Of a DNA stretch of 64,000 nucleotides, positions 687 to 59,223 are shown one piece after another; within the stretch, counting starts at the first letter, position 1; each line of letters opens with the position of its first letter. Where the stretch lies: assembly GCF_026914265.1 (NCBI RefSeq), contig NC_069135.1:62548738-62612737 (forward strand), read 5' to 3'. The notes beneath the pieces are model-generated. The model did not search any database, was not told the DNA's origin, and saw only the letters and a program-made list of their open reading frames with translations. Source of the stretch: Mya arenaria (lineage: Eukaryota; Mollusca; Bivalvia; Myida; Myidae). The position numbers and the translations under genes were made by a program.

Positions 687-2582
687 TCAGCTGAAGATAT
701 ATAGATTGATTTATTTGTTAGAACTTAACGATTAAGAGTTTGCATTAATATGTATTTCAAATGCAAGAACAATACAACAGGTTTGAAATGAATGTAATGA
801 CATATTGTAGCGTTGAAGCATTTCACATACGTACATTAATAGTTTAAATCAGTGGGATTGCATCGTGTTTAGTCGTTTAGACGTCCGTTGAGATTTTAAT
901 TACTACTATAAATCGTTATCAAAACGTAAAAAGACACTCACCAATGGTCAAGTCTTCCGCAGGGTCCGCATGCTTTTTCTTGCGGAACGCAGCCGCCTTT
1001 TGAGCCATCGAACACCTCGCCAACCGCACATTTCACCGTGCCAATATATTTTCCTCCCTGGCAACGCACGTATCGGTCACATCGCCCAAACTCATCCTGA
1101 TGGAATCCGTCTACTTTTGTACCGCACTCGGGCATCATTCCCCCGTGTTCTCGAGGAATCATATCTAATGAAACGCATTCGTTTTTTTTCCGCATGGAAC
1201 AATTGTGTTCGGCCATTTTCGTCAGCTTGGCATCTCTCCTCTTTGATCGTGCGTTCTTTGTAGCATACGGCGTAGAATGGACTCCAAGGTTTTACTGGAT
1301 GAACGTTTATTCCGTCAGGTTTGCCCACACAGCTTGGAAGGTCGACACTGCAGGGTCTACAGTGGGCAACGGGACACTGGTTGGATCTGTATTGGCCTGA
1401 AGTACAACAAAATACAAACTATTTTTCAGGAGTTAGGGTGTATTATATAAATAATATTATTGGGTGCTGGCCAGAACTTCTGGAATCTACTAGGTGCCGA
1501 AAATTTAGAGTTGCATCAATTTATGATATATGTTGGTGTTCAAAGTGTAATTACCAATGCATTTTGGCTGTTGAATTTCTATATTTCAAACAAAGTTTGA
1601 TAGGTCAACTTACATCCATCCTTGAACTCTGTCCTGCTACCACATTTTACATTCTCAAAATGGCCACACTGTTTGGTCTCAGTGTTGAACATCTGTGGGT
1701 AGGGACATTCAACAAGGTGTTGCTCGAAGAACCTGGGAATCCCATGTGTGTAACGGACACTGCAATTGTAGAAGGCTTGACATTCCGTGGGGTGTGGGAA
1801 CACGCCTCCGAACATGTTGCATCGTTCCTCTGGGCTAAGAGGCCCTGGAAAGTAAAACTAATTTTTAGCAAATTGATTCATAAAACAGGATTTATGTGTA
1901 AACTTTCGGCTACTGAGCTTGTTTCTTTATTTTTTCATATAATAATTAATATCTTTAAAGATGCATGATATACTCTTCTATACATTATTTGCCAAGAGTA
2001 GTTTTCAACCGAGGTATTTGCATAAAATAAATGTTAATTGGAATTAATTTGCTGTTTTCATTTTCGTATTCATTTATTTAAACTAAAGTATTAACTTTTT
2101 TCGACATAAAATTCACTCTTCAGTATAAATAATGCTTTATGTGTTCTATTTATAAAGACTATATAAATTATTTACTATATAAACTGATGTACATGTTTAG
2201 CAATTGTACACTTTGGCATGCTTTTTGAAAACACATACTTAGGAAAATCATACAATGTCAGACAATACAAACACCAGCGCTAGAACTTACCTAGGTCAGG
2301 CAGCAAGGGCATGTGGCCACCGCTTCCTTCTGTTGTTTTCTTGCAGTCATCATACATTGAACCTTTGGGAACACAAACGTTTGCGCTGGAGCTGAACACC
2401 GATCTAGGAGGACAAGGCGGCATCTCGACTTTTTTCCCAAACACGCACATGAAGAAGCCCGTACAGTCGGCCTTTCCGATGATCTGAAATATACCCGGGG
2501 TGCATTGCACGTGTTCGTCGTGGCCAGCAATGACCAATGTTGCGGCGACCAAAGCATACAACGATGTTGTGTATCCAATCAT
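687..2582 (-). CDS. Gene A: secreted four-module CBM14 (peritrophin-A-like) chitin-binding protein, frameshifted in exon 3
   Basis: Type-I member of the family, probably a secreted chitin binder for extracellular matrix, shell or gut lining (role inferred from the domain). Exons on the minus strand are 2291-2582, 1614-1844, 942-1396 and a last exon starting at 690. Exon 1 encodes a hydrophobic signal peptide (residues 1-20) and CBM14 module 1 (six Cys, about 27-80). Exon 2 encodes module 2 (six Cys). Exon 3 encodes a degenerate module 3 and module 4. Introns start GTAAGT and phases are 1,1,2. Exon 3 has an A8 run at about 1181-1188 where genes B and D have the codons for EKNEC. The extra base throws module 4 out of frame, although the rest of the exon is preserved. 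The gene is therefore either a fresh pseudogene or a homopolymer error in the assembly. An unspliced reading of exon 3 would stop at 938 after DHW. Closest relative is gene C. Confidence 0.82.
1880..1965 (+). repeat. Partial copy of the ~190-bp dispersed element in intron 1 of gene A
   Basis: The segment around 'ggctactgagcttgtttc' matches the 3' half of the dispersed element seen whole at 60,928-61,118. The same fragment sits at the same place in gene C (about 37,350-37,440), so it entered before the unit duplication. It lies antisense to the gene. Confidence 0.55.
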
Positions 2583-2749
2583 TGTTTCGCTATAAGGTTT
2601 GAGTATTATAGTTGGAAGTCATGTATGAAATAAAATGAACAATTGAATTATGTTTTCTATCAACGTTTTCTCACACACTGTTTGTTAAAAGGATGTAGTC
2701 CTAGTAAAAGTAAGCTTATTTTCGATTAAAATCTTTGTCAATGCGTAGT

Positions 2750-2870
2750 TAGAGAATGGTTTGAATGTTAAAGATGCGACTTTATATAGAAATTTTCGAC
2801 AACCTTTAGGCGGCGGGGCTTCCTGGCGCGGTTAACACACGCTCTTAAATTAATGACGTAGGCGCATAAC
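2750..2870 (-). promoter_or_regulatory. Gene A promoter
   Basis: Reading the minus strand toward the gene: TACGTCA (2854-2860), a GC-rich box containing CCCCGCC (about 2810-2818), then TATATAAA (2781-2788). The TATA box is about 200 nt before the start codon, as in genes B, C and D. A start site about 30 nt past the TATA box would give a 5' UTR of about 170 nt. The element order is conserved in all four genes. Confidence 0.7.
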
Positions 2871-5830
2871 TTGAGTAGGAAATTGTAATTTAATTTTCGT
2901 GGCCCTGTCAGTTAACTTAGTGTTTCAACAATGTTTATTATATTATAATGATAATTAAGTCGTAATCGTAAAAATGTGTCACTTATTTGTTTCAAGTCAT
3001 TTGTAACGTAATGTTGACATGCTCATTGAGAGACTAGAAATATTTAAATATGTTTTTAAATAATTAAATTAGTTGCTAAATGGTTGATACTTTAACGCCG
3101 TCGTGGTTTTGTACAGTTGTAAATTTTGCCTTATAAAGAGACGGTTTGAAGGTAGCATCACCCGATCATACACTTTGTATTGTATTGTATCTTTTTTTAA
3201 AACATCAGTATTTAAAGACAAACAAATAAACGATAAGGAGATAATATCGACTGTTTTGAAAAGACGATTTCATGTTTCACAAATTCTTACCTCCCATTTC
3301 TTTCGTAAACAAGAAATACGAAATTGCGAAATATGACTTTTCGAAGAATCGATTCTGATTAGATACAGATGAAGCCACTATTTGACTGAATATATTTCAT
3401 TGTCAGGGTGTTTATGCGAAGTCTTGTATTGTTCTTGTTTGTATAGACAGTTTATTAATACTTTGAAAAACATTTTCTGATGTTTATTTTGTCCTTCTCC
3501 GATGTTTGTGTAGAAATAATATATTACTGTATAGTCCTTTTCCGATGTTTGTGTGGAAATAATATTATTGTATAGTTCTTTTCCGATGTTTGTATATTTT
3601 TTCTGTTGTTTATACATTATTTATTTGCTAATGGTTTCCTGATATTTAGGAAATATAAGCTTAAATACATACACATTAAAAACACCTACTTAATTTTCCA
3701 GCTTAATTTATTTTTAGAGGTATTTCTAACAGTAGACATACGCAAGAATAAAACAGAAATCACGTTGAATCGTTTTGATATAAGCATTAGACCTTGTAGG
3801 AAATTGTGTATCACGTGAGAAACAAATAGCGGAAATCAAAGGCGAAGTTAAAATTCCAACCCTATAAAGATAACCTCTGAATAGCGAGCTATTACCGGGC
3901 GTAAACGTCATTATGGAGCATTAGCAATACATTCCACACGAATCGAGGCATGAGTATAAAAACGTACAGTTACATCATTTCTATGTTAAACAATGCATAA
4001 TTAAATTACGAAGATTATGATATCTGACAGCAGTGTGAGGTGATACAATGTGATTAGTTATCGTACCAGTGAATGTAAGAAATATTAATAAAATGCGCAA
4101 ATAATTTAAATCTAACACGTTATTTATTTACCAACAAAATTAAATGCATGTTAATCGTCATGGTAAACACAACGACAGTCAGAGAAGGGTTCTTTCGAAA
4201 AATGTCTTAAATCACCATGCGGTTCCAATACGACAAACTATTGCCAATACTTTGGAGATAAAACCATTTGAATCATGATTTGATATTTCGAGAAACCACA
4301 AAACATTCACCTTCTAAAGTTAAGTGTCTAAGGCGGCTAAGGTGTCTAGCTCATGTGAATTAATGGTTCATGTGGCAACGCAAATTTGCAAGTCATTTCC
4401 TTGTAAAAATGCTTAGGGTTTGTGTAGGAAAACTTGACCTCAATAGTTTGAACATCATGCTTAAGGTCAATATAATAGTAGTGACAATTTATACAACGGA
4501 AAATGAAAGTCTCCGGTGTTAGGATGGTTTATCATACTTTCATTGAGGACACCACCGCTTAGCTGAGAAGCTGATAATGTGGCCTTCGCAAGTATAGAAA
4601 TGTTTGCTGTTGAAAGATTAAACAAAAAATATCTATATTTGATTTTCGTAAGTAATGGATGCTGATAAAATATGGTTAATAATCGGAACAATGACTGTAA
4701 AAATATAGATAAACTGCGTAAATGTTTTTACAAAATATAATTTGCAATTGCTAAAAAAAATAACCACATGTTTATCATTTTGGTTATGACAACGACAGTC
4801 AAAGAAATGTAATTTTGCACAATTGTCTATAATTTTCATATGACAAACTATTGCCAATACTTTTGTAGCTAAACAAAATTGAATCATGGTTTGATATTTT
4901 AAGAAACCACAGACCATTCCCTGCCTTTGTTAAGTAAAGTGGCGATGACGGATTATGTGTTGAGTTCATGCGATTTGATTGTAGTAATATTGTTAATGTA
5001 GCAACGCGAATTTGCAAGTCATTTCCTTGTAAAAATGTTTAGGGTTTGTGTAGAAATACCCCAATTGTGTGAACACCAAGCCTAAGGTCAATGCTATTGT
5101 ATTGACAATTTGTAAAACATAACGTGAAAGTTTTCGGTGTTAGGATGATTTATTGTACTTTCATTAAGGTCTTTACCGCGCCTCAGCTTAGACGCTGATA
5201 AGTGGCCTTCATAAGTATAAATATGTTTACTATGTGAAGACAAAACAAATAAAACGAACCTATGTCGTGACAAATTTCTTCCTGTTTCTTTTTGCTTTTA
5301 GACTTCCATTCTATTTAATTAAGATTTCCTATAATGCAGTTGAATTTAATTCGATTCAGGGATGTTAAATGGAGCTAATTTACTGTATGCATAGACGCCA
5401 GTTGTATCCTTTTCTGTGGTAGTAATTGTTATATTGTTTTAGTTGTATTGCACACTTACAAATGGTTTATAAAATATTCAAACAAGGTGATTATTTAAAA
5501 ATGTCATGTGGAATTTAATAATTTTCCGTTTCAACTAGTTGTTCCGTTTTGCTTGCAAAATGCGGGGAAAGATAATTGGGTGAAAACGATTTTGAAATGT
5601 AATTTCATTGGTTTTACGAAATTCCTCCGTGATCTTTAGATTTTGTATTTTTCTTGTCTTATGACACCTTGCGAAACAAACATAGGTCGACCACATTATA
5701 TTACACCATACTATTTCAATGCAAACTTTATGTGCAAGGCTAGAAGGTAACGATTCATTGTCTTGCTTCAATGCACAATAACAAAAATAACATAATATAC
5801 ATCAAATGATATGGCCAAAAATTCAACCAC
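2871..5830. other. Intergenic DNA without a recognisable gene; internal 0.6-kb tandem duplication
   Basis: No supported coding region. About 3,490-3,600 holds three 40-43-bp tandem copies built on 'ccgatgtttgtg'. About 4,090-5,250 is a direct duplication with a spacing near 625 bp; the word 'tttgcaagtcatttcc' occurs at 4,384 and again near 5,010, followed both times by 'ttgtaaaaatg'. The same pair occurs in unit 2 (about 42,840-43,990), so it predates the unit duplication. Confidence 0.6.
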
Positions 5831-6490
5831 CAAACCCTGCACATTGTTACATTCCAGTTGCCACCTTAAAGCACACAACACATAGAGTTTTCAAAGGGGT
5901 TTAGACTGGGGTTATCGCCTTCAAACACTCAACACACACCGTTAACACTGGGTTATCCACCTTTGAACACTCAAAACACAAGGTATACACTAGTGTTCGC
6001 GCTTTAAAACACTAAACACACATCGTTTACAACACACTCTGATTATACAGGGGTTTCCACCTTTCAACTCACAACACGGAGCGTTAACATCACACACCGC
6101 TAACAGTGGGGTTTGCACATTACAACAATAAACACGCAGTGTTAAACACAATGGTTTCCGACATTAAGCTTTAAACACGTAGCGTTATCAACACACATCG
6201 CTGACACTGGGGGCCTTGAAACTCTTAACACCCCGCACTTACACGGGGGTTTCCGCCTTGGCACTCAATACGAAGCGCTGATACCGGCGTTCACGCCTTG
6301 AGTCACTTAACACGCAACACTAACACTTAAAACACAGCGCTTACACTTAACACATAGCTCTTACACTAAAGCATCCAACTTGAAACACTCAAACATATAC
6401 TTACACTGTGGTTCAACACATATCTTTTACATTGGAGTTTACACATTGAAACATTCAAAACATAGCGTTCACAATGGGGTTCCCGCCTCC
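5831..6490. repeat. Degenerate ~55-60-bp minisatellite, unit 1 (unexpanded)
   Basis: Diverged tandem copies of a unit of the form 'ttgaaacactcaacacac' plus spacer plus 'acactggggtt'. Only about one copy of the 'ttttcaaaggggtt' monomer (about 5,890) is present here. Its counterpart in unit 2 (44,560-47,690) carries about 34 near-identical copies. Confidence 0.75.
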
Positions 6491-7974
6491 GGGTTTATAG
6501 CAAAAAAATTAAAGGGTACTGACCAGATATTTATAAACCAAAGCAATCATTTGCTGTAAGTAGCCCAATGTCTTTTTTAGTGACCACGCCCCAACCCGAA
6601 ACACATGAAAACACCCGGAAATTTGTACAGTTATGGGTATTACATTTAGGTGTCTGTTATCATCGATCAGATCGATCAGATCTCAGATCAATTGATATTT
6701 ACATTTTTTTTTATTTTTTGATCTGTCAAAGCATGTGCGGTGCGGCCCATTTTTGGAAACATCCCTAATTGGCAGTTAGTCAATGAACAAACACAAGTTT
6801 TCTGGCACCATTGCAATATACAGTGGGTACAGACATTTCTTAAAATAGGCCTGTATGTACTTATAAATCCAAGAACAGTTTATATCAGAATGTATGAATT
6901 TGATACGTTCTTGTCTTGTTCTTAATCTAACAAAATTTGTGTAACATTCATTCAATTTTAAGTGAATGGAAATTTTATGTTTGCATTTCCATCTTCCTTA
7001 ATTGATGTCATGGGGAAATGGTTTGAGTGCAATGCAGCTCATATCCTTTTTAATATTTCGACCTTTGAATTAATGTGGAATTCGATAAATTGTCTTCGTA
7101 TAAAGATGACTAGTTTTGCACGTTTGACTTCATGGGTGTCAGATTGTCAAATGAGCCACTAATAGATTAACGTTGTCATTGCATAATTATCAAAGTGAAG
7201 TATCAGCATTTAGACGCTTACGTCCATTTTTTGACCTTCAAAATGAAAGACAAACTTTTTACATGCCTTTACTTAGTGATGGCGCGAATATCGAATATAA
7301 TCGAAATATTTTTGATTGAAAGCGAAAATCGGCGAAATCGTTTTTGATAATCCATAATCGATCATCATCGAACAACTTTTTTTACTTAAAAACAAAAAAA
7401 TACACGTCGTGTACAAAGAGTTGAATCATTACAATATATAGTCAAATTGGTGTTATAAATGTACATTTTTTATTTTTTTATTTTATATGTTAGGCCATCT
7501 TTGACATATACTTGACTGGAAGATTGTTTTAACTATCATGAACATTAACTGTATTTGAGTAAAATTTAGATGCATGAAAATCGTTGCTCATTTTGATTCG
7601 ATTAGCGAATATGGAATTGTTCCGTTAAATACTACCTTTACCACGAGGTAATGCCGCGTTTTGACGTTGAATATGTTGTGATGTACAATTATGTAGTTCA
7701 GGGAATCCTCATACACAGCTAATACTTTTGTTTGTGAGTTGTACTGTACTTTAATATTGATTCACTAGGGGATGGTCGGGAACACTTTTATTAACCATAA
7801 CCCGACGAATCTAGTACTACCATCCAATCATTCGTGTTGTATTATGTTTGTTTATGTCAGCCTTCACACTCTTGTGACACTTGATATGACAAACGATCAA
7901 AATGTTATCTAAATGTACTTGTTTTTGTTTCAGACAAATTTGTCACCTAGCGGTGCTTCTTTTAATTGGTACAG
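6491..7974. other. Intergenic DNA, colinear with 47,700-49,310
   Basis: No gene seen. It contains a GATC-rich quasi-palindrome at about 6,660-6,695 and a CGA/TCG-rich patch at about 7,285-7,375 that may be an eroded transposon end. Divergence from the unit-2 copy is visibly higher than around 13 kb. Confidence 0.5.
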
Positions 7975-8215
7975 GTATATCAAGTATCAATGGACCCGGT
8001 GCAGTATTAATGGACCTTATGAAATGTCCGTATAATAAACATGTAGAAGCCCGTCGTTTGTAAGGTATCGTGAACATATGAAAAATCAGTGTGATAAACC
8101 AGTACAAGCCCGCCCGTTCAAAGCAATGTTACAATATAAATGACCAGTTTGATAAACCTGTACAAGCCCACAGTTGAATAGCAACCTGACAATTATTAAT
8201 ATTCAGTAAGATAAG
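7975..8215. repeat. ~57-bp tandem repeat, about 4 copies
   Basis: Diverged copies of a monomer containing 'tgataaacctgtacaagccc'. The matching array in unit 2 (49,310-49,690) has about six or seven copies. Confidence 0.65.
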
Positions 8216-12934: not shown

Positions 12935-13099
12935 TACGTGTATATGAATAAACAATCACGGAAGTGTGCTTCACCCTCCTTTTAAGGTAACTTGATAATC
13001 GCAAACATCAATATGCATATAGAAGCATCATACTTCTTTTAATCCTAATGATTTAAATGTCAAGGTAAAGGTTTGTAGTTTTCGATAAGATTAATATGT

Positions 13100-16179: not shown

Positions 16180-17964
16180 TTAGCTGAAAAACGTAAAACA
16201 GGTGTAATTATCATAACGTTATGGCATAGTTTATAATTATATTTATTTGCAAGAATTGACAAGAATAAGAGCATAGTTTTAAACACTATATTTGCAAACC
16301 ACTGTAGATTGGTATGAACATGGATGTTTATCTGCTGTTTTGTTTAATGTCAGTGCTCATCTTGACCAAATAAACATAAAATTAGCTTTTACCTTTATAT
16401 AGTTATCAAACACCTAATGTTGAATGTACCACTAAAGGGAAAAACTATGTTAGCATAATTACCAATGGTCGAGTTTCCCACAGGGTCCACATGCTTTTTC
16501 TTCCGGAACGCATCCGCCTTTCGTGTCATCGAACGCTTCTCCAACAGCACATTTAATCGTGCCAATGTATTTCCCTCCCTGACAATGAACGTAACGATCA
16601 CATCGTCCGAAATCGTCCAGATAAAATCCGTCTACTTTCGTACCGCACTCGGGCATCATCCCGCCGTGTTCTCGAGGAATCATATCCAATGAAACGCATT
16701 CGTTCTTTTCCGGATGGAACAACTGTGTTCGGCCGTTTTCGTCAACTTTGCATCGGTCTTCCTTGACTGTGCGCTCCTTGTAACAAACGACGTAGAATGG
16801 GGTCCATAGTTTGACTGGGTGGACGTTAATTCCGTCACGTTTACCTTCACAGCTTGGTAGGCGGACGTTACAAGGAATACAATGGGAACCGCCGCACATA
16901 TTGCTTTTGTATTGACCTGAGGAAGACAGAATCATATGATCGTTTTTTTTATGGAGCCCAAGAAATAAGTTTGCTATTTAAAGTTTAGTTTATCCAAATT
17001 ATTGAGGTTTACCAGGTAGGGCTTTTTTTCGAACTAAAATATTAAATATACTATTTTATTTCTAACCATGAATACATAAACATATGCCAACTTACACCCA
17101 TCCTTGAATTCCGTCCTGGTTCCACATTTGACATTCTCAAAATGGTCACATTGTTTGGTCTCTTTGTTGAACAGCTGAGGGTAGGGACATTCAACAAGGT
17201 GTTGTTCAAAGAATCGGGGAATCTCTGGAGTGTAACGGACACTACAGTTGTAGAAGGCTTGGCATTCGGTTGGGTGGTGGAACACGCCATTACCGTCCCT
17301 GTTACATCGTTCCACTGGACTAAGGTGCCCTGAAAAGCACATATGATTGTTCTCAACTGGCTTAAACCTTCATATATATTTTATGCCTTTAACGCATTCG
17401 GTGGGCTGCAGCCACAACCAAATGATTATTACAATGGACTTGTATTTTCCATGTGTGAATTAATTCATTTATATTGAATTAAATTATTCGAAACCAATAA
17501 TAGGTAATGTGTAATGAGTTTGAGGACACTCCTAACTATCTCCTAATTTGATATAAACGAGCTGCAAGTCGACTCTTGTGACTAATGTTCGAATAAAATT
17601 CTCTATTAGGGGATCAACAGACAACAAGAAAAAACAAAATCTTATGTGAATAGCAAAATCGTTAGAGCTCACCTTGATCTGGCGATTCGGTTATGTGGCT
17701 GCCGCTTCCATCGGTTGTTTTCTTGCAGTCATCGTAAATAGAACTTTTAGGAACACAAACGTTAGAGCTGGAGCTGAACACAGAGCCAGGAGGACAAGGT
17801 GGCATCTCAACGGGATTCCCGAACACACACAAGTAGTAGCCGGTACAGTCGGCCTTTCCGATGATCTTATATTCACCCGGGGTGCATTGCACGAGTTCGT
17901 TTTGGCCAGCAGCGACTAATGTTGCGGCGGCCAAAGCATACAACGCTGTGATATATCCAATCAT
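16180..17964 (-). CDS. Gene B: secreted four-module CBM14 (peritrophin-A-like) chitin-binding protein, intact
   Basis: Type-II member, 327 residues. Exons on the minus strand are 17673-17964, 17096-17329, 16463-16916 and a last exon whose only codons are at 16180-16183. Signal peptide is about residues 1-20. Module 1 has Cys 27, 40, 46, 57, 70, 80. Module 2 has Cys 106, 120, 126, 145, 158, 166. A Cys-rich linker (176-198) leads to module 3, which is degenerate (Cys 198, 220, 231, 249). Module 4 has Cys 266, 281, 287, 298, 311, 318. Aromatic residues expected in CBM14 are present (Y43, Y44, F123, Y124, Y284). Donors are GTGAGC, GTAAGT and GTAATT; acceptors end TTTCAG or CCTCAG. Splicing the last intron replaces Trp-stop by Cys-stop and gives an even number of cysteines (28). 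Binding to chitin is inferred from the family. Closest relative is gene D. Confidence 0.88.
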
Positions 17965-21212: not shown

Positions 21213-24200
21213 TTACAATTGCACAATCATTTTCAAATTTATCTTAAATATTTGAATTTTAAAAATGTTCCATGCTAACTGAAGGCTATTTTTGAAACCA
21301 ATTACTGTTGGAACAAACTTTTTTCTTTCACACAGAAAAATAAATTTCTTATATACTAATAAAAGTATATCAAATTTGAAATTTTTGTTTCCAGAACAAT
21401 ACAAACATACTGTTAATGACAATACTTGAGTCATTAATTTTCAACTTATGTACCATATCCTGCAATACCGGCTGTATTTTATTGCAATCCCAAAAGAGAT
21501 GTAAAAGAGTTTCTTCATGGCATTCACAAAAGGAGCAAATATCATTTTCAACCAGCTTCATTTTATATAATAATGAATTTGTTGGTAATATTCTATGAAG
21601 AACTCTTAATTGTAACCATTGAATATAAGAATCTTTTGTACACTTAAATACACAACTATAGACATTTTTCAAATTAATATAGACATTTTCATATTGTAAT
21701 AACAATTTGTGTTGACTTGTTGGAATTTCATTATTATTAACAAAGATTTTATTTATTATTAACAAAGATTTTATATAGAAATCGGTTTACATTTTCTTTT
21801 GTCAAAATTGGGTTTATAAAAGTGTTCATACATGGGTTACTACATTCTAAAAAGTTAAAGTCATTAAGCACAAATTTAGAATGCCTCATATAGGCCTTTA
21901 TCGCAGAAATTAATCCATTATAGTGTAGGAAGTTGACCTTGTTATCAATTATTGCTTCAATTTCCATCAGGCAATACATATTTCCATTGGCATTAAAAAC
22001 ATCTTTCACACAACGTAATCCCTTATTGTATAGGGTATGAATAAATACATAATTTCCATTACCAAACTTGTGGTTGTAAAATAATGGCATATGCATAAAT
22101 TGATTAACATTGTCTATACAAAACTTATCTATGTATAACATATATGCATTAATAACATCTTTCCAGAATGTGTTTGACATCTTTTGACAAATAATTTCAC
22201 AGACTTTCATTCCACAATTCAACAATTTTTTTACATCAAATAATACAGACATTAATTTAAAGCATTTACTTTTTTCCATTTAATATACAATTTCTAATCC
22301 ATTTTATCTTTAAGCTATACATATAACTTGTAACATCAATCATATTAATACCCCCTTCTGGAAAATCTTTTTTTAAAATGGTACTCTTAATTTTTGCTTT
22401 TCCATTCCACACACACTCAAGGAATAAATCATCATTTAACTCTTTAAGAAAATCATTTGTTGAATTTGGTAAACTTATGAAAAGGTGTGTAAATAATGGA
22501 AGTAAAATTGACTTAACTACCGTAAGCCTGCCAATTGGTGTGAGTTTCCTTTTTTCCAATACATAATGCTGTTTTTAACTTTTAACAATTTTTCATCAAA
22601 ATTTATCTTACCCATTTGATTTAAATCCACATTAAAATGTAACCCAAATAATTTGAATCTCGTATCTCCCCATGACAGTTTAAATTTTGTTTTTATGGAT
22701 CGTGATGAGTATTTTAGTGGTCCTATCCAAACTAATTTGGTCTTATCATAATTAACTTTAAGCCCTGATAATTGTGAAAATTGATACAACAAATCTACCA
22801 CCGTTCTCACTGTTTCCTCAGTACCATCTAATAGAAGAGATGTATCATCAGCAAATTGTGAGATCTTATATTCCTCACCATCAATAACAATACCTTTTAC
22901 AGTTTCATTGTTTCTTATCATAATTGCCAGAATTTCAGAACATAAAATAAACAAATATGGAGAAATAGGGTCCCCTTGTCTACATCCTCTTCCTATCTTA
23001 AAAAACTCAGACAGGTGTCCATTTAATTTGATCGCAACTTCAGTATTATACATAAAAATTCTTATCCATTTTTTAAACATATCACCATAATTGAACAGTG
23101 ACAAAGTCTTTTCAATAAATTTAAAAGATATGGAGTCAAACGCCTTTTCATAATCAATCAACATCACTAGGCCAGGAATTTTTTTTATCATCGCATGTTT
23201 TCATAATATCATACAACAATTTTGTGTTTTCACTTATATTTCTACCTTTAATGAATCCTGTTTGATCTTTTGAAACTAAGGTATCTAAAACATTTTTCAA
23301 TCTGTTGGCTATACTTTCTGAAGCTATCTTGTAAATAACATTTAAAAGAGTAATAGGTCTCCAATTCTTCAAAAACTGTTTAGACTTACCGTCTTTTGGT
23401 ATACATACACTTGTTCCCAATTTGATAGTTCTAGAAAATGAATTAGACAAAAACGCATGATTAATCGCTCTTAAAATAAACTTTCCAATATCTTTCCAAA
23501 ACATTTTATAAAAAATTACGGTAAAACCATCACAACCAGGACTTTTATCATTTTTCATTTGTTTGACAGTATCTGGAACCTCTTCATATGTTAAAAGTCC
23601 CTCTAAAGAGTGTGACTGCTAATTGTTAAGTACATTATAGTTGCAATTAAGTTCAGTTTGTATATCAAAGTCACATGGTAAATTTTCCTTATAGAAATTA
23701 TTATAAAAATTATAGGCTTCTTTCAAAATTTCCTCTTGTTCCAAAATATAAGAGCCATCTTCTTTTTCAATAAATGGTATATGCTTATCAGCAATAGTTC
23801 TTTTTTCTAAATTGCAAAAATAAGTAGAAGCCTTTTCTCCATTTTCAATCCAATTTGCCCTAGATCTCATTACAAATCCTTTAAGTTTATTGTTTCTTAA
23901 TTCACTTAGCTCTGTCTCTAAAATAAGTAGTAGATCTTTATTAGTATCCCAAAGATATTTTTGTAGTTCTAAAATATCATGCAGCAACTTTTCCTCTTGT
24001 CTATTTCTCTCTTTTGATTTATAACTAGCATACGATATAGTTTTACCTCTAATTTCCATTAACATAGTTTCTAGAAATAATTCATCATTTATTACAAATT
24101 GTATTTCTGATCTGTCCATTTTAACACAGCATTACAATCATATACTGGAACACAATATTGTAAAATAATCTCATTAATTTACATTTACAATGTTTAAATA

Positions 24201-24980
24201 ATCCATTTGAGATAAAAGTGAGTTATTAAATTTCCAAAGGCCCTTGCCATGCTTAGCTTTTGAAAAACATAATTCTTAAACAATAATTGAATGATCAGAT
24301 TTGTAGCAAATATCTGTATCACACTTTCTAACATAATTCACCATATTATCTGTGATCAAAAAAAAATCCAGTCTACCTTGCTGAAATGTGTTCAATCTCC
24401 TCCATGTATAATTTCTAGTATCACCATGTAATTCTCTTTATGTATCTAACAAGCCTCTATCTGACATGATGTTTAACAATCTCTTTCTAGCTCTAACATT
24501 ATTATTTATAGATTTGTAATTCTTATAGTCCAACTCTGGATTTAGCACTAAATTATAATCTCCACAAATTATATACTTATCTACATTATTAAATGTATCT
24601 ATTTTATCAAAAATCATATTAAAGAAATTAGGATAGTCATTGTTTGGTGCATATATTTTAGCTAACAAGAAAACCATATCATTGTACAATAATTAAATCA
24701 TAACAAAATTTCCACTATTATCTTTTACTACATTACAAATTTTCACATTCAAATTTTTCCAAATGAAAATAGCGACTCCTCTAGCATTAGATTTACCATG
24801 ACTAAAAAAAACATTCTCCATTCCATTCTGAATATATTGTTGTCTCCTGCTCATTTGTAAAATGTGTTTCCTGAATACAGGCTATATCAACTTTTTTTTC
24901 TTTGAGTAAATTTAATCAAGGCGTTTTTTAGTATTGTTAAGCCCGCAGCAATTATAAGAATACACTATTAAATTAGACAT
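21213..24980 (-). pseudogene. LINE ORF2: endonuclease, reverse transcriptase, C-terminal zinc knuckle; defective
   Basis: Starts at an ATG at 24,980 followed by an endonuclease start (YSYNCCGLN). Further endonuclease motifs are IQETH (near 24,870), GDYN (near 24,560), YTWRR (near 24,400) and SDHS (near 24,290). The reverse transcriptase lies at about 23,560-22,520, with DYEKAFDS, GCRQGDPISPYLF and the catalytic FADD (near 22,850). Near the C-terminus a C-x2-C-x8-H-x4-C knuckle lies at about 21,540-21,490. The frame changes several times: in A/T homopolymers near 24,895, 24,808, 23,182, 22,555 and 22,268, and at a 22-bp tandem duplication at 21,731-21,774. In-frame stops also occur, for example near 24,438. 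The reading frame is nevertheless traceable over its full length. Confidence 0.88.
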
Positions 24981-25773
24981 CAGTATATGTTTTGTCTACA
25001 TACTCATTCAGACATCTATAATAAGTGTAACTACATTTTATAACAATGAACTCAACAAACATTTTTATGTAAAAAATATTCATACATTGCATGTTAAAAC
25101 TTACAACAAAAAGGAACATAAACAAAAGGGCAAATTTGAAAACTCAAGTTTTCACTTATTACAAAGAACTATGTGTATATTATTTACATGAACATAACTT
25201 ATAAAAAATTTAATGACTTAAATACAGTCCAAACTTAAAGGTCATTATGAATGACAAAAACTTATCAACACCTGATAATTGCAGTAAATAACATTTCTTC
25301 ATACAATATATTGAATAAAGGATCAAGTATTTAACAATATGGCAATCACTGACCGATCACATGGCAACATTTACCTGTTGGGGTTGGGTTTTAGTTGCAA
25401 AAATACGTTAGTTTTTATCAACGGTAAAAAGTATATATATCTAACAAAAACATTTCTTGTTAACGATATATGACATTAAATCTATCATCTTGAAAGTAGT
25501 TTTTCACTCCAGGGTCTGATGAGAGAGAACCAAAAAGCACCATTAAATTACTAATGTATGCATAACAGATATCTTAAATACTTTAAACCTGAAGCTTCCC
25601 CGGCAGTCCTTGGATGAAATAAATATCGATGAAGTATATACCTTTAAAACAACATGAAAAGGGCATCAGACCAGAAAATGATTTTGAAACAAATTTAAAA
25701 AAAAGGAAGACATTTTCAGATATAACTAGGTCAGTAGAGTAATAATAAAAAAAGAATAAGCTCAGATATAGCT
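24981..25773 (-). other. Long spacer between LINE ORF1 and ORF2
   Basis: Nearly 0.8 kb without a convincing frame. The 64-codon frame at 25,583-25,777 overlaps the end of ORF1 and has low-complexity hydrophobic content; I do not accept it as a gene. The spacer is long for an L1-type element, where the ORFs are usually close together. Confidence 0.55.
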
Positions 25774-26692
25774 TCATTTTTGGCCCCGCTTCATTCTTAA
25801 ATCGGCAATTTTCTCATTTATATCATCATAAATATCAAATTTAACACGCTCTTGTTCGCGGGTCTGTCCATAAACTGATCCATTGAAACACCAGCCAGTC
25901 TCTATTTGGTCGTGGTCATAAAGTCTGTTTATCAGGATGGTGTTGCGGCGTGTTACGTCATCTGTTACACGGTGCCCTGATGACCTAAGTTCCTTTCTCT
26001 TTCTCATGACACGGTTTTTTACACTAGTGTTTATGGTTTTAACGATAACCGGCCTTATCCCACCCCCTCTGGTTGGTAGTCGGTGTATCGCCAGGATCTC
26101 GTCCCTACGAATCATCGCGGTACCCTCACCCTTCAGAATCTCGCCCACTTTCTCGACAAGCTTGTCCTCCGTCTCACCCCGCTCCTCACTTACTGCCATC
26201 AACTTAAAATTTGTTTTCCGTGAGTATTGTTCATTTTGATTTGCCATCTTAATTGCATCTCTGCTTCTTATTTCGTTAAATGGTGCTCTTTCTTTGAGGT
26301 CGTCAATTTGCTTTTGGAACTTTTGGGTGGTGGTTGATATCTGCAAGTTGCTTTTTATCAAAATCTAAGGACTCAATGTTATCATGAAACTGTTTACATT
26401 GTTCTTGTATCTGCTCTGAGACTTCTTTTTGGAGTTTTACTTCGAGAGATTTCATTATTGTAGTGACTGTCCCGGTGATCAATTTTTCAATGTCGTCTTT
26501 TTTCATTATATCATCTCACAGTTTAGTTATTTCACCTGAGATTTCATCAAGATGTATGTTAATGGCAGTTATATCACCCACACTTTCGTTGCCCACCTCC
26601 GAAAATGATCTTTTATTTGGTGGTTCTGACTGTACTTTTCCTTTAATTGTCTGTTTTGATTTCAGCGGTTGGGTTTGATTTTTCCCACTCAT
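25774..26692 (-). pseudogene. LINE ORF1: L1-like nucleic-acid-binding protein; defective
   Basis: About 306 codons from ATG at 26,692. The N-terminus is Lys/Ser-rich and a coiled-coil-like region follows (about 26,500-26,300). The rest resembles the RRM and C-terminal domain of L1 ORF1 proteins: YSRKTNFKL, then IHRLPT...RPVIVK, then VTDDVTRRN. One in-frame TGA (about 26,516-26,518) and one frame change at an A5 run near 26,360 break it. In the L1 family this protein coats the element's RNA. Confidence 0.8.
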
Positions 26693-32159: not shown

Positions 32160-32420
32160 ATAATACGCCAACTTACATTCATTCTTGAACTCCGACCTGA
32201 TTCCACATTTTACTTTCTCGAAATGTCCACACAACGGTTGACGCTTGAGCTGAACAAAGAGCCAGGAGGACAAGAACACGTACAGTCGGCCTTTCCGATG
32301 ATCTTATCTTTCCGATGATTTTATACCCGGGGTGCAATTCACGAGCGCGTCATTTCTAGCACTGACCAAAGATGCGGTGGCCAAAGTTTACAAGGCTTTT
32401 CTTTGTGCCGCTCTTTGAAA
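32160..32420 (-). pseudogene. Collapsed peritrophin-like pseudogene
   Basis: 32,170-32,233 matches the 3' end of exon 2 including its GTAAGT donor (compare 17,091-17,155). It runs straight into exon 1 sequence (32,245-32,400: 'gagccaggaggacaag', 'cagtcggcctttccgatgat', 'cccggggtgca'). Intron 1, most of exon 2 and part of exon 1 are missing, and a short tandem repeat of 'tttccgatgat' is present. A family-type promoter follows at about 32,570-32,610. This is a fifth gene that has died. Confidence 0.82.
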
Positions 32421-36157: not shown

Positions 36158-38049
36158 TCAGCTGAAAATATATAGATTGATTTATTTGTTACAACTTAAC
36201 GATGATCAGTTTTCATTAATATGTATTTCAAATGCAAGAACAATAAAACAGGGTTGAAATATATTTATTGACATATTGCAGCTTTGAAGCACTTCACATT
36301 CGTACCTTAAAAGCTTAAATCAATGGGATTGCATCGTGTTTAGACGTTAAGACGTGCGTTGATATTTTTACAACGACTATAAATCGTAATCAAAACATAT
36401 AAAGACACTCACCAATGGTCAAGTTTTCCGCAGGGTCCGCATGCTTTCTCTTGCGGAACGCAGCCTTCATTTGTGCCATCGAATACCTCTCCAACCGCAC
36501 ATTTTACCGTGCCAATATATTTTCCTCCCTGAAAACGAACGTATCGGTCACATCGCCCAGATTCATCCTGATAGAACCCGTCTACTTTCGTACCGCACTC
36601 AGGCATCATTCCCCCGTGTTCTCGAGGAATCATATCTAATGAAACGCATTCGTTCATTTCCGGATGGAACAATTGTGTTCGGCCATTTTCGTCAGCTTGG
36701 CATCGCTCCTCTTTGATCGTGCGTTCTTTGTAGCATACGGCGTAGAATGGACTCCAAAGTTTTACTGGATGAACGTTTATTCCGTCAGGTTTGCCTACAC
36801 AGCTTGGAAGGTCGACACGGCAGGGTCTACAGTGGGCAACGGGACACTGATTGGATCTGTATTGGCCTGAAGTACAGCAAAATACAAGTTTTTTCAGGAG
36901 TTGGGTTGTATTATATGAATACTGAGATTGGGTGCAGATTAAACTTCTGGAAACTACTAGCTGCCGAAATTTTAGAGTTGCATCAATATATGATATATGT
37001 TGGTGTTCAAAGTGTTATTTCCAATGCATTATAACTATTGAATTTCTATATTTCAAACAAAGTTTGATAGGTCAACTAACATCCATCCTTGAACTCTGTC
37101 CTGCTTCCACATTGTACATTTTCAAAATGGTCACACTGTTTGGTCTCAGTGTTGAACAACTGTGGGTAGGGACATTCAACAAGGTGTTGCTCGAAGAACC
37201 GGGGAATCCCATGTGTGTAACGGACACTGCAATTGTAGAAGGCTTGACATTCCGTGGGGTGTGGGAACACGCCTCCGAACATGTTACATCGTTCCTCTGG
37301 ACTTAGAGGCCCTGGAAAGTAAAACTATTTTTTACCAAATTGACTCATAAAACAGGGTCTATGTTAAAACTTTCGGCTACTGAGCTTGTTTCTTTAGTTT
37401 TTCATATAACAATTAATATCTTTAAAGATGCATGATACACTCTTCTATACATTGTTTGCCAAGAGTAGTTTTCAACCGATGTAGCCGCATAGAATAAATG
37501 ATAATTAGAATGGATTTGCTGTTTTCATTTGCGTATTCATTTATTTAAACCAAAGAGTTAAGTTTTTTCCATATAAAAATCACTCTTCAGAATAAACAAT
37601 GCTTTATGTGTTTCTATTTATAAAGATTATATAAACTATATACTATATCAACTGATATACATGTTTAGCAAGTGGACACTTTGGAATGCTTTTAGAGAAG
37701 AAATACATAGGAAAGGATAAAATATCAGACAATACAAACACCAACACTAGAACTTACCTAAGTCAGGCAGCACTGGCATGTGACCTCCGCTTCCTTCTGT
37801 TGTTTTCTTGCAGTCATCATACATTGAACCTTTGGGAACACACACGTTTGCGCTGGAGCTGAACACCGATCTAGGAGGACAAGGCGGCATCTCGACTTTT
37901 TTCCCAAACACGCACATGAAGAAGCCCGTACAGTCGGCCTTTCCGATGATCTGAAATACACCCGGTGTGCATTGCACGAGTTCGTCGTGGCCAGCAATGA
38001 CCAAAGTTCCGGCGACCAAAGCAAACAACGCTGTTGTGTATCCGATCAT
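36158..38049 (-). CDS. Gene C: secreted four-module CBM14 chitin-binding protein with a lost cysteine
   Basis: Type-I member, 326 residues. Exons on the minus strand are 37758-38049, 37081-37311, 36413-36866 and a last exon with codons at 36158-36161. Phases are the same as in A, B and D. The start is the ATG at 38,049, matching the family signal peptide; an in-frame ATG 31 codons upstream would bury the signal peptide. All frames are open. The exon-2 donor is GTTAGT instead of GTAAGT. In module 4 the third conserved Cys (Cys287 of gene B) is Phe: RYVRF against RYVRC in gene A. That should break one disulfide of the CBM14 fold. Exon 1 and 2 products differ from gene A at few positions. Confidence 0.88.
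37345..37440 (+). repeat. Partial ~190-bp dispersed element in intron 1 of gene C
   Basis: Same fragment and position as in gene A (1,880-1,965), with 'ggctactgagcttgtttc' and 'tagtttttcatat'. Confidence 0.55.
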
Positions 38050-49690: not shown

Positions 49691-49734
49691 GCGACAGTCG
49701 CACGCTACTTGTAATAAAGAAGACTGTTTACTGA

Positions 49735-51880: not shown

Positions 51881-53765
51881 TACTAGAATGTTGTGTTTTG
51901 ACACATTAGCGACGCATTTCTAGCTGTTCTTTGCAAAATTTTAAATAATAGGGCGCTAGTTTGTCAATCTTATAGAAAAACACATGTTGAAATGCTAATG
52001 GCTACATTTTATGTGTTTTGTGCACAATTTTGTAATTAAAGAAATGGTTAACGCAAAGTGTAATTTAAATTTAAACGTTTGTGTATCTAGGTGGAAGAGA
52101 TATTTAGAAATGTGATGATGAGTTTTCTTTTTTCTGAATGTTATCTTTTTAAATTAATTGGCATACTATTTTAAGCTATTTCCGTTGCCAATGAAGTACT
52201 TTATGCAGAGTTTAAGTTAAAATGTACATATAAATGTGGTTTAGTTTTAACACTGATCAATTGTAGATCGCATGGAGGTGACTCCCAGATTCACCAGCAA
52301 ATGTTAAAAATTGCTGCATTATTTATGTTATAGGTTATATTATGTACTGGAATATTAAATATGTATGCAAAACGGATCAACAAATTAACTTTTAAGGTCT
52401 GGCTAAAAATCCAAATAGGTTTTTCCTCGACCGATTTAAGTTTAAATAAACCCAAAATTTGTATGTATAAAGTAATTGTCGTCATTTGTTTTACATGTTA
52501 TGACTCAGCAAGCAATACCCTGTCAAATGATACCAAACTTATATGGGGGTCACTAGGCATCAACATTTTACTTGATTGACAATATAGCTATCAGCTAACT
52601 AGCGTACTGGTGGGTTTGCGACTGCATGGTTTATAGCATGTGTAAATCCATAGATTTATATCACCAAGTTCAAAGGGAGAAAAGATATTATGCCGTGAAT
52701 ACAATGAGCATAAATTACAAAGCAGGAAACGATATCCTTTATTTTATTAGTTTGAACGTATGAAGAAGGTACATGGTATATATCTCAACTAATTTTAACA
52801 TTAGATCTTTATCTTTAGCTAAGATGTAATTTCAGACACGACAGGCTAGATATATTGGATATGGAGATAAGTTATTTGAACATGTGCGGTCGACAATTCA
52901 TTCCATCATTAGTGAAAGCAAGTGTATAAATAAAACAAAATCTTTAATTTATTGTAAATTGTTGTTTGTGGTTATGTTAAGCAAGCTAAAATTGTTATGT
53001 AGTGGTGTAAGAAAAATAAAATATGATTTAACTGATTCCAAGTAGTAAATATCTGATGCGATGACTTCCTGAATAAAATCATGATAGACATTAAAATCGG
53101 CTTCCGCAAATACAAATTTATGATTATTGTACTTATGAAGAACACGGTATATATAAAATTGATAACTTGTTTAATACCTCTTTTATTTTTAAGATAATAA
53201 TACAATAAAATATACAGGGACAAGCCCACTTGTCTTTAAATCAATTATGAATCCTGTTAAGAAGCAAAAGTCATGGACACAAACGGCACTGAACGTCAGA
53301 CACAAACTTGCACCACACACTTACTCCACAAACAGAGCAATGACTCCCGCCAATATTCATCGCTGTTAAGTTTATCACTTCTTTCTTTAGCCACTAAGTG
53401 GTCAAAATGCTATAGCGTTTATTTTCATTGGAGCTTCATTACCGTAACCAGCAGGTGTCGATTTGATATTCTGAGAATAGATGGAATAGTTAATCGCTTT
53501 AGCATATACAAAGAATGACACTAAGACTTGAATTATAAGGATCTGCCTTTTGCTAAACTCATATGTACTTGGTACTATCGAAGAACAATCGGCTACTGCT
53601 CAGGTCAACCGCTAATGGCTGTTTTAAGTACTGTCCAGAAATAAGTTTAATTACCTTGTTTACTAGAGTCCTATTAAAGGGGTTTGGTCTAGTTAATTTT
53701 GACATCACTGAAACTATTGATTGACAAGCTCCTTTTTGTGACAATAGCCAGTAAAATACTTTGGT
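51881..53765. other. Intergenic DNA with a ~150-bp unit-2-specific stretch
   Basis: Colinear with 10,720-12,536. Bases about 53,237-53,385 have no match in unit 1, where 'cttgtcttt' joins 'ttctttctttagc' directly. No gene. Confidence 0.5.
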
Positions 53766-54154
53766 TATTGTCACATGAGATTAAATGTATCACATGATAT
53801 CGTTAAACTATTAAGGGGAATTAGGAAACACTGAATGGTCAACTACAATGGGGGCCAATAAGAGAGTATAAAACCTTATTTTTGGAGGTCGAGAGGTAGT
53901 CTGTTTCTGGTTAGGATTCTGAAAGTCGAAAATGTAATTGATTTTAAATCTTCAGATCTACGGACCGAGTTGAGGCAGTCGTCTGCCAGATTAAGATCTG
54001 AGAGTCAGCTTTGCTCTCGTTTAATAGAACAAATTAATTGGCAACTAAGAAATAAATAATTGTTTACAATAAAACTTGTAACAGCGGACGTCGTTGTTTT
54101 GACTCTATTAGTATACGGTTGAACGGCTTAGTATATAGCAAGAAAATGGAGTGA
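53766..54154 (+). mobile_element. Possible solo LTR or promoter-like block, unit-2 copy (fossil)
   Basis: Same TATAAAA (53,867-53,873), CCAAT and AATAAAA (54,068-54,074) order as 12,537-12,934. Very similar to that copy. Confidence 0.25.
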
Positions 54155-54336
54155 GGGTGTTACATACGTGTATATGAATAAACAATCACGGAAGTGTGCT
54201 TCACCCTCCTTTTAAGGTAACTTGATAATCGCAAACATCAAGATGCATCTAGAAGTATCATACTTCTTTTAATCCTTATTATTTAAATGTCAAGGTAAAG
54301 GTTTGTTATTTTCGATAAGATTAATAAGTCGAAGCA

Positions 54337-54411
54337 ATAACTCAGTTCGTAGCGCTTCTTGCTAATAATCTGCCGATCGATGGTTCTAGTCATACCCGGT
54401 GTATTTTAACA
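54337..54411 (+). repeat. Degenerate tRNA-like SINE head, unit-2 copy
   Basis: A-box-like 'gttcgtagcgc' and B-box-like 'ggttctagtcatac'. Partner of 13,100-13,176. Confidence 0.4.
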
Positions 54412-54636
54412 TACAAGTTAAATGGTATAAATGAACGCCAATCATGTGTAGCTGTTACAAAAAATGTTCCAATGCCGAGACTCTTGAAAGTGAAATCGTC
54501 TACCTTTTGTAAAGATATACATATACAAGCATGATTCTCGGGCTATCTGTAAAATCATGAATAGTCAATGAAAACACTCCCCTACAGAGACAACTAAAAT
54601 ACAGGTTATTAAAGAGTAAATTGTACCGCGGAAAGT

Positions 54637-54771
54637 ATGGAGTGTAACGGAAGAAAATACCTTGGCTGCCGAGGATGTTTAATAATGAGCGTTGGTATTT
54701 TATTCCTTATAGCCATAATTCCTTTACGACTATTTTACGAAGGAAAAAAAGTAAATCGTGATTCTCATTAA
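54637..54771 (+). CDS. 44-codon membrane-protein-like ORF, identical unit-2 copy
   Basis: Identical in DNA to 13,405-13,539, with the same hydrophobic segment and the same possible donor. Function unknown. The surrounding block is also well conserved, so identity of this short ORF alone is not proof of coding. Confidence 0.3.
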   Translation: MECNGRKYLGCRGCLIMSVGILFLIAIIPLRLFYEGKKVNRDSH

Positions 54772-57448
54772 ATATAATTTCGTTTACAAGAATGAAAACT
54801 CTAAATGTAAATATGACACAAATAATACCCAAAGAAATATATTGAGCGCAGCCAAATCTTATGTGGAGGAACTTGTTCGAAAAAGCACTTTAAATTGTGT
54901 GGAGTCATATTGTAACGTAATACAAATTTTGCAAATGATCTCGTTGACGTGTTAGACGATGTTTGATGAGTTGCAAATGGACAAAAAACTCAATGTTCAG
55001 AAAAGAATTTATTATGATCCTATTAAATCATATTTTATTTTACAATAAATTCATAGATATTGATTTGGTCAAGATTATCCAAACTTGTTAATGAATGGAC
55101 AATATTTATGAAGAATAAGTATCAACCAATCAAATCATTAAAATATAAATACTTGCCAAAAGGTAACCTGCGGATAATGTATCGAAATAACCTATGGAAA
55201 ATAACCCGTGGACAACATGACTAATTTATAAACAGATAACCAGGTTTATACAATTGGCTGCCAAAGTACACATACCTGGATTATGTAAACCTCAAAAAAT
55301 GTAGTTCACACGTTGCTTTTTGAAAAAAATGTACATTCAATGTACGAAGTTACCTCTGCAGAACTCATTTTTGTAGACAACGTGATAATATTATGTTTGC
55401 TTAAACTTTTGTTTAAAGTGGATATAAATAATCAATTCGCTTCATCGATGTATATCCTGGTTATTATCAGTTTGACCAAGTACATATATATATCATAACA
55501 CTTGTTCTAAATAAATATTGTTCATTTATTTGAACGAAGCAATGGATTCACTTTTATGGCCACCCATCGTTCAAATGATACTCCATAAGCCGCTGGTGGT
55601 AAATCAGCCCGCAAGGAAATGATCTTTGGGTGATGCAATTTTTAAATTTGTTCAAAAATAAAATAGTTGTTTTCTGTGCATACCCCCACTTTGAAGCAAC
55701 ATATATTAATAACAACACACAACTATCTTGTAAGAAACGGCTTGCTTTATCAAAAAAATATGTTAATACATCAGTCGCAAAGATTCCAAATAATCTGGAA
55801 TGAATGGCTTAAACTAATTTCCTGATTTCCCGAAGTTCATTCACAAACATATTTCTTTTTGTTCAGACTGTCAACATGTTTTGAAAGAAATGGCCGCTAA
55901 AAGGTTGAAAATTATACTGTAAAAAAGGATGGCCGAATTTGAAATATTTTCACCCCAATATTCTATATTTTAACCTCTGTCAAAGTTGTTCAACCCGTCG
56001 CTTATTATCAATATAACGACCACCAATTGCTTGGAGGCGGTAACCCTGTACGGAGGTTGTTGAAGCTTCATTTTTTTTAAATAACATTCGCCAAAAGGAG
56101 AACTATTTTACGTACATGGTTTTGTGAAAACTTGTGAAATATATTTATAATAATAATATTAATATTATATAAATTTATGTGTTCCTGAAGCAAGTCTCAA
56201 CCAGAGCAAATACTTGTGTTTTTTTATTTCTGCACTAACTATTTTGTAAAGATGAAATTGAATGGCAATCTATAAAAGGAATGAAAATGTGTACTTCCGT
56301 GTTTTAACTTTATGCAATGGTTTTCACACTCGATTACCCTAAATAATAGTAATCATGTATATGCATGTGAAACATTTCCTGTTAGCTGTTACTCATGGAG
56401 GCGTGAGCAGTGAGCCTACCATTTATGTCAATGAAAGTCTAAATCAATCTAAGAAATGATCACATTACTCATTTATTCATCACTCTTCTTCAATTTACAG
56501 ATGTAGTAGATTTAAATAAAAGAGACAAATCATTGATGAGTGCTGAATGGAGTGTTTCCATAGATCAAAGCCCAAAGTAAAATATATAAGTTTTAATTGG
56601 AAAGTGTTGAAGAGAGAGAGTAGGAGGATGAGACAAAGTTGTAAAATGATATCAAGTACTATAAGATATGCTATTATTTATGTTTCATTAACAAGGTTGT
56701 AAAAGTTTGTATGTCCGTTTGCATTACAGCAAATCCGGTCGGTAAATAAACCTCAGCGGGCGATAATGGCGATGGATTAAATGAGGGCACGAAGAAAGAT
56801 AATAAAATTAAACGAGTTTCGCTGTTTTATTAACAATAAAATACATGGATTTCAAATTCACTGCACATGGAAAAATCATTGATAAAAATAACGATTTTAC
56901 ACAATCTATTTTTAAATTATGTTTCATATTTCATAATTTTATTATGCATCGTATTAAAATATATAGTGTTATAAATCTCTTATTCTGTTCTGATTTTCAC
57001 CCCATCTGATAAATGACAGCTAACCTTTCACTTTACTTGAATCATTGTCCATGCTGCATATATTGATAAATATAGTATTATTTAAGGTTATATCCGAATT
57101 AATATTAATATCACAGAGTTAAAGAAGCACACATTCAATGAATGTTACATTCGGGCAAACTTATAAAACAAACATTTTACATGATGAAATATACATAAAC
57201 GTCGGGACTCAATAGTTGAATCAATAGTTTTCTCATAAAAATGAAAACAAAATGAATGCTCAAAATTTGGCAGATTTTTTAAAGGCTCTTTGGAACAATC
57301 TAATATCACGTTCAATTTAGCAAATGTTATCACGAGACCTTACGTGACGTGATAACGTCCTTAATGAATATCACAGCTAATGATGGTCTTGGCGATTCCT
57401 GACTTCGTCCTTCTTTATATCGTTTTCACCATCATGCAAGCAACTTGT
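54772..57448. other. Intergenic DNA, colinear with 13,540-16,179
   Basis: Strongly conserved to about 55,560, less so after. No gene seen. The right end is probably 3' UTR of gene D. Confidence 0.45.
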
Positions 57449-59223
57449 TTAGCTGAAAAACGTAAAACGGGTGTAATTGTCATAACGTTAAGGCATAATT
57501 TATAATTATATTCATTTGATAGAATTGATAAGAATAAGAGCATAGTTTTAAACACTATATTTGCAAACCACTGTAGATTAGTAAGAACATAGATGTTTTA
57601 TCTGCTCTTTTGCTTAATGTCAGTTATCGCCTTGTCCAATTAACAATAAAATTAGCTTGTATATTTATATAGTTATCAAACACCTAATGTTGTATGTACC
57701 ACTAAAGAGAAAAACTATTTTAGCATATTTACCAATGGTCGAGTTTCCCACAGGGTCCACACGCTTTTTCTTCCGGAACGCATCCGCCTTTCGTATCATC
57801 GAACGCTTCTCCAACAGCACATTTGATCGTGCCAATGTACTTCCTGCCCTGGCAATGAACGTAACGATCACATCGTCCGAAATCGTCCAGATAAAACCCG
57901 TCTACTTTCGTACCGCACTCAGGCATCATTCCTCCGTGTTCTCGAGGAATCATATCCAATGAAACGCATTCGTTCTTTTCTGGATGGAACAGCTGTGTGC
58001 GGCCGTTTTCGTCAACTTTGCATCGGTCCTCCTTGACTGTGCGCTCCTTGTAACATACGACGTAGAATGGGGTCCAAATTTTAACTGGGTGGATGTTTAT
58101 TCCGTCACGTTTACCTTCACAGCTTGGTAGGCGGACGTTACAAGGAATACAATGGGAACTGCCGCACATATTGCTTTTGTATTGACCTAAGGAAGACAGA
58201 ATCATTTGATCGTTTGTTTTGATTATGAAGCCCATGAAATGAGGTCGTAATTTAAAAAAAAGATAGTCCCAGTAATAAGATATACCAAATAGAGATGTAT
58301 TCGAACTAGAATGTTAAATATTTTTTTTATTTCTAACCACGAATACATAATCATATGCCAACTTACAGCCATCCTTGAATTCCGTCCTGGTTCCACATTT
58401 GACATTCTCAAAATGGTCACATTGTTTGGTCTCTGTGTTGAACAGCTGAGGGTAGGGGCATTCAACAAGGTGTTGTTCAAAGAATCGGGGTATTTCTGGT
58501 GTGTAACGAACACTACAGTTGTAGAAGGCTTGGCATTCGGTTGGGTGGTGGAACACACCATTACCGTCCCTGTTACATCGTTCCACTGGACTAAGATGCC
58601 CTAAAAAGCAAATATGATTGTTCTCAACAGACTTATAACCTTAATACACTATATATTTTATGCCTTTAACGCCTTCTGTGGGCTGCAGCCACAGCCAAGC
58701 GAATATATATTACAATGGGTTTGTGTTTTCCGTGTGTGAATTAATTAATTTATATTGAAGTAAAATATTTTTAAACAAATAATGAGTTATGTGTACATAA
58801 TTTTGAGAATGCTCCTTACTATCTCCGTGCTGCTGGTCGACTCTTTTACTCATGTTTGAATTAAATTCTCTATGAAGGGATCAACAGCAAACAAGAAAAT
58901 AAAAGAGAATAAAAACATCGTTAGAACTCACCTTGATCGGGCGATTCTGTTATGTGGCTGCCGCTTCCATCTGTTGTTTTCTTGCAGTCATCGTAAATAG
59001 AACCTTTAGGAACACAAACGTTCGAGCTGGAGCTGAACACAGAGCCAGGAGGACAAGGTGGCATCTCAACGGGATTCCCAAACACACACAAGTAGTAGCC
59101 GGTACAGTCGGCCTTTCCGATGATCTCATATTCACCCGGGGTGCATTGCACAAGTTTGTCTTGACCAGCAATGACCAAAGTTGCGGCGGCCAAAGCATAC
59201 AACGCTGTGATGTATCCGATCAT
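57449..59223 (-). CDS. Gene D: secreted four-module CBM14 (peritrophin-A-like) chitin-binding protein, intact
   Basis: Type-II member, 327 residues. Exons on the minus strand are 58932-59223, 58367-58600, 57733-58186 and a last exon with codons at 57449-57452. Signal peptide is about residues 1-20. All module cysteines listed for gene B are present, including Cys287. In module 4, GG after that Cys is GR. Donors are GTGAGT, GTAAGT and GTAAAT; acceptors end TTTTAG, CTTAG and TTTCAG. Frames are open throughout. It differs from gene B at five of the 97 exon-1 residues and only a few in exons 2 and 3, so both type-II copies look functional. Role is inferred as in gene B. Confidence 0.88.

Follow-up and report, generated by a model that had tools for sequence, protein, structure and literature searches.

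Does the last intron of a gene family in Mya arenaria exist so that its proteins can end in either of two residues, or is it an ordinary intron whose unspliced spelling happens to include a stop codon? The question arises from a window of 64,000 nucleotides (C14:62548738-62612737), the whole stretch of DNA analyzed here, which holds four minus-strand genes of the family, A to D, each with three main exons whose ends were read directly. An earlier note had pointed out that exon 3 ends in TGG followed by TGA or TAA, which also forms a GT donor after TG, and that an acceptor followed by C and a second stop codon lies downstream; it proposed an intron that only decides between Trp-stop and Cys-stop. 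The features are listed below, with a slash for the splice cut.

687..2582, minus strand: gene A; exon 1 at 2582-2291, exon 2 at 1844-1614, exon 3 at 1396-942, intron 3 at 941-691, exon 4 from 690 (C), stop TGA at 689-687
16180..17964, minus strand: gene B; exon 1 at 17964-17673, exon 2 at 17329-17096, exon 3 at 16916-16463, intron 3 at 16462-16184, exon 4 from 16183 (C), stop TAA at 16182-16180
36158..38049, minus strand: gene C; exon 1 at 38049-37758, exon 2 at 37311-37081, exon 3 at 36866-36413, intron 3 at 36412-36162, exon 4 from 36161 (C), stop TGA at 36160-36158
57449..59223, minus strand: gene D; exon 1 at 59223-58932, exon 2 at 58600-58367, exon 3 at 58186-57733, intron 3 at 57732-57453, exon 4 from 57452 (C), stop TAA at 57451-57449
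691..941, minus strand: intron 3 of gene A, phase 2, TTG/GTGAGT ... TATCTTCAG/CTGA, 251 bp
16184..16462, minus strand: intron 3 of gene B, phase 2, TTG/GTAATT ... GTTTTTCAG/CTAA, 279 bp
36162..36412, minus strand: intron 3 of gene C, phase 2, TTG/GTGAGT ... TATTTTCAG/CTGA, 251 bp
57453..57732, minus strand: intron 3 of gene D, phase 2, TTG/GTAAAT ... GTTTTTCAG/CTAA, 280 bp
32163-32396, minus strand: degraded remnant of a further family member, with pieces of exons 1 and 2
21749-26361, minus strand: open frames that resemble fragments of a LINE-type element encoding reverse transcriptase, so named on the basis of a FADD motif that we take to mark such enzymes

By their junctions, the first two introns are in phase 1 and the third is in phase 2. 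Exon 3 of all four genes ends in ...GACCATTG/GTRA, giving TG/G-TGA in A and C and TG/G-TAA in B and D, and a CAG acceptor lies 251-280 bp past exon 3, followed by C and a stop codon (ATATCTTCAG/CTGA in A, ATATTTTCAG/CTGA in C and CGTTTTTCAG/CTAA in B and D). Read without splicing, the proteins end in ...DHW-stop; read with splicing, they end in ...DHC-stop. The description given in the earlier note is thus accurate for these genes, and its four junctions (942/690, 16463/16183, 36413/36161 and 57733/57452) are exact to the base. Two of the genes have peculiarities elsewhere. Exon 3 of gene A is frameshifted by a difference in the length of a T-run, its close relatives L005 and L007 being intact; this is either a damaged copy or an assembly error, and the intron 2 donor of gene C is GTTAGT.

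The comparison was extended to the entire genome (1.216 Gb, 18 contigs), in which exon 3 of gene B found at least 88 matches. The family set consists of the 47 places that reach the C-terminal end of exon 3, A to D included, with 45 on C14 and two on C10; every other match is a fragment of one of these copies, an incomplete hit or a more distant one. For the 43 copies outside the window, flanking DNA was used as well, and all relatives compared come from a single genome. The 46 copies with an acceptor represent 44 distinct sequences over the exon 3 end, the intron and the start of exon 4. An exon 3 tree of 43 copies, from which the damaged L040, L042 and L043 and the acceptor-less L041 were excluded, separates 21 copies with a GTGAGT donor from 22 others by a branch with 100/100 support. 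A literature search of titles and abstract openings found no published description of this gene family, which does not prove its absence.

Two arrays on C14, at 60.04-60.48 Mb and 62.16-62.62 Mb, look duplicated, in that the order L006-L007-L001-L010-L002-L009 parallels L008-A-B-C-D-L004. In the tree, A is the partner of L007 (and L005), B of L001, D of L002 and L008 of L006; gene C clusters with L004 and L009 and not with L010. The paired arrays are either a segmental duplication or unmerged haplotypes. Another copy, L030, is nearer to B-type queries in exons 1 and 2 (85-91%) and carries B-type splice ends, and its exon 3 is A-type, a mosaic that suggests conversion or recombination between the clades.

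One alternative is that there is no third intron at all, and that the protein truly ends in DHW while the downstream acceptor and C-TRA arose by chance. What speaks for it is that TGG is followed by a stop triplet in every copy: TGG-TRA stands at the end of exon 3 in 47 of 47, out of frame in L041. TAG never follows TGG, however (0/47), and since TAG would be an equally good stop codon that breaks the donor, its absence argues against reading the site as a plain protein end. The donors themselves comprise 21 GTGAGT, 13 GTAAAT, 11 GTGAAT and two GTAATT. All 47 agree with the consensus at 6-7 of 9 positions, as compared with 5-7 of 9 for the intron 2 donors (46/46 copies) and 7-9 of 9 for the intron 1 donors in the 34 copies found, which were sought with a consensus pattern. 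The intron 3 donor is thus about as good as that of intron 2 and weaker than that of intron 1.

In 46 of the 47 copies there is an acceptor whose next base turns the TG of exon 3 into a Cys codon. The sequence after it reads C-TAA in 23, C-TGA in 21 and T-TCA in two, so that TG/C plus a stop codon is spelled in 44 of 47 and TG/T with loss of the stop in L038 and L039. The acceptor triplet is YAG in all 46 (41 CAG, five TAG), and the preceding 12 bases hold at least eight pyrimidines in 45 of the 46 and seven in the remaining one. On both contigs the TG/ split keeps its position and phase, in 46 of the 47 copies overall. Intron 3 measures 215-293 bp in 44 copies and 438-439 bp in both C10 copies, where the sequence confirms the acceptor of L012 and inspection by eye located that of L011. 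In the broken copy L041, the conserved acceptor is absent and the downstream DNA differs.

Introns 1 and 2 of the family also served to train a position-specific score for acceptors, which was discarded as over-fitted (40 distinct, closely related sites): in many copies it preferred other AGs to the conserved acceptor, and that of gene A fell outside the best three. The score did, however, point to the acceptor of L012. Five copies (L024, L026, L027, L028 and L029) have a second good acceptor about 135-138 bp past exon 3, before the main one, which gives C-TGA in four of them and CTGC in L028.

Could such an arrangement persist by chance or by shared descent alone? In an order-1 Markov test of four downstream regions (those of A, B, L028 and L030; 4000 resamples per region), an acceptor followed by C-TRA within +180 to +300 was seen in 0.18-0.40% of resamples. 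Genes A and B represent the two main clades, and their identity is 0.85 in exon 3; in introns 1, 2 and 3 it is 0.66, 0.60 and 0.63, with shuffled values of 0.65, 0.63 and 0.65, and in the first 120 bases of exon 4 it is 0.55, with a shuffled value of 0.60. Between some clades a weak residual similarity in intron 3 remains (B and L028, 0.70 with 0.64 when shuffled; B and L011, 0.76 with 0.70), which means that the copies are not fully independent. The donor, the acceptor and C-TRA appear to have outlasted their surroundings, which is what functional splice sites, and a coding Cys followed by its stop codon, should do. Because the splice ends and C-TRA are kept where the introns of A and B are at the level of shuffled sequence, it is very probable that intron 3 is genuine and under selection and that the protein ends in Cys. 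To attribute to chance an acceptor with C-TRA in 44 of 47 copies, and TG/T in two more, across clades with barely alignable or non-alignable intron interiors would be difficult, and we regard an intronless, Trp-ending gene as highly improbable.

The cysteines of the protein bear on the same question. The gene D protein matches CBM14 (Pfam PF01607) in three stretches, with 84.2 bits (cut-off 22.1) and an E-value of 6.6e-24, and the family products are putative chitin-binding CBM14 proteins. Spliced proteins of B and D end in ...CGPCGKLDHC. In gene B, the CBM14 match of exon 3 stops nine codons short of the exon end, which places the CGPC Cys outside the six-Cys domain. This tail Cys is invariant in 33 aligned exons (of the 47; eight broken and six duplicate ones were left out), and the damaged copy L042 has Ser in its place. 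A disulfide between the terminal Cys and the CGPC Cys is the most likely arrangement, judging from these patterns. An AlphaFold model of exon 3 (mean pLDDT 56.6, with residues 149-151 below 50) is too weak in the tail to speak to such a bond, and the only PDB hit found by sequence was weak (E 0.089) and was set aside.

As for the number of cysteines, full-length spliced models were obtained for 19 copies, the other 28 being broken or missed by a simple junction search. In 16 of the 19, the spliced protein has 28 Cys; without the last one, these 16 would hold an odd number (27), which again argues against a protein ending in Trp. L003 has 29, the extra one standing in its leader (MIGC...). A count of 27 is found in L008 and in gene C, which lack the same domain Cys (gene C has Phe at this site). 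The earlier note had counted 27 and 28 Cys for gene B and reasoned that the terminal Cys would turn an odd number into an even one. The spliced product of gene B, 327 aa long, indeed has 28, hence 27 with a terminal Trp, and that of gene D also has 28. Among A to D, however, the argument is limited to these two genes, since gene A is frameshifted and gene C is short of one domain Cys (27 spliced, 26 unspliced).

Two copies separate the Cys from the length of the protein. In L038 and L039 the junction reads TG/T TCA, by which Cys is kept through another codon while the stop is lost and a tail of 25 residues is added. The equal length of both readings, pointed out earlier for the four window genes, thus holds in 44 of the 46 acceptor-bearing copies but not in these two, and it is the Cys, not the equal length, that is the constant. 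A possible reading frame after the Cys-stop, inspected by eye in a few copies, was dropped because it is interrupted at different places.

The alternative closest to the original proposal is regulated retention of intron 3, with a purpose for both endings: in the Trp form the tail Cys would stay unpaired and could serve, for instance, in cross-linking or dimerization, and the Cys form would close the tail. The equal length of the two readings in 44 of 46 copies fits this idea, although several of these copies are broken elsewhere; the same equality, however, follows automatically from a GTRA donor and a stop codon right after the split codon, and with L038 and L039 the equal-length alternative is not conserved family-wide. 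The donors on the side of gene B (GTRAAT and GTAATT) lack G at +5, and as they are weak at this position and intron 3 donors are weaker than intron 1 donors in general, some retention is conceivable. Against this stands the comparison with intron 2, whose donors match the consensus no better.

In 27 of 46 copies (15/21 A-side, 12/25 B-side), intron 3 itself contains AATAAA, which could end a retained transcript. This signal is missing in 19 of 46, gene D among them, its place differs by group, though some close relatives share one (position -25 relative to the acceptor in A, C, L004, L005, L007 and L009), and the intron DNA is rich enough in A and T to contain it by chance. We therefore rejected intronic AATAAA as a sign of a retained isoform, given that its position varies between copy groups. 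Neither the weak +5 base nor the intronic AATAAA is common to the whole family, and regulated retention seems to us very unlikely. A narrower version confines partial retention to some tissue and to the B/D-type clade (GTRAAT or GTAATT), where one gene would secrete Cys-closed and free-thiol Trp forms of equal length; it strikes us as slightly less probable still. A form that is both retained and regulated would amount to a one-residue redox switch made by splicing, if true, but nothing found requires one.

Downstream of the acceptor, AATAAA occurs within 900 bases in 45 of 46 copies. In 21 of 46 copies, a block around AATAAA located 317-643 bases past the acceptor aligns to that of gene B well above shuffles; these are 21 of the 25 B-side copies, B itself counted, the exceptions being L011, L012, L040 and L042. 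No A-side copy has a poly(A) region that aligns to that of gene B clearly above shuffles.

The explanation we favor is that intron 3 is an ordinary phase-2 GT-AG intron that splits the final Cys codon and is, with a high degree of probability, removed constitutively. From the splice signals, the Cys that they yield and the even number of cysteines in most full models, all of which are observed, we infer both the splicing and its constitutive nature, as well as the disulfide. The intron would split the last codon as TG/C, the final exon would hold a single coding base followed by the stop codon and the 3' UTR, and the terminal Cys would pair with the CGPC Cys just past the CBM14 domain of exon 3. 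The Trp-stop would then be the spelling of the unspliced RNA only: G/GTRA in phase 2 reads NNG-TRA, and because TG stands before the cut, a standard GTRA donor in this phase gives TGG-TRA. The notion that the intron exists to choose between two endings is accordingly unsupported by the data, as the Trp ending is a by-product of the donor. There is also a practical warning for annotation, in that an open reading frame called on genomic DNA would end these proteins in Trp, missing the tail exon with its one coding base and the likely last disulfide partner.

In a wider context, the family shares with the secreted, chitin-binding CBM14 (peritrophin-A) proteins the three CBM14 stretches seen in gene D and a six-Cys match in exon 3. 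It differs from them in the CGPCG...DHC tail, which adds two further Cys after the last domain, and in the opening part of exon 3, where a Cys-rich stretch stands without a family assignment. The intron, for its part, follows a published rule: according to PMC2809761, phase-2 introns with a GT(A/G)A donor start with TAA or TGA as their first full codon, so that retention stops translation at once. Intron 3 has this first codon in common with them. Unlike in the usual phase-2 GTRA introns, it is the last codon of the protein that is cut here, and retention would swap one residue rather than truncate the product.
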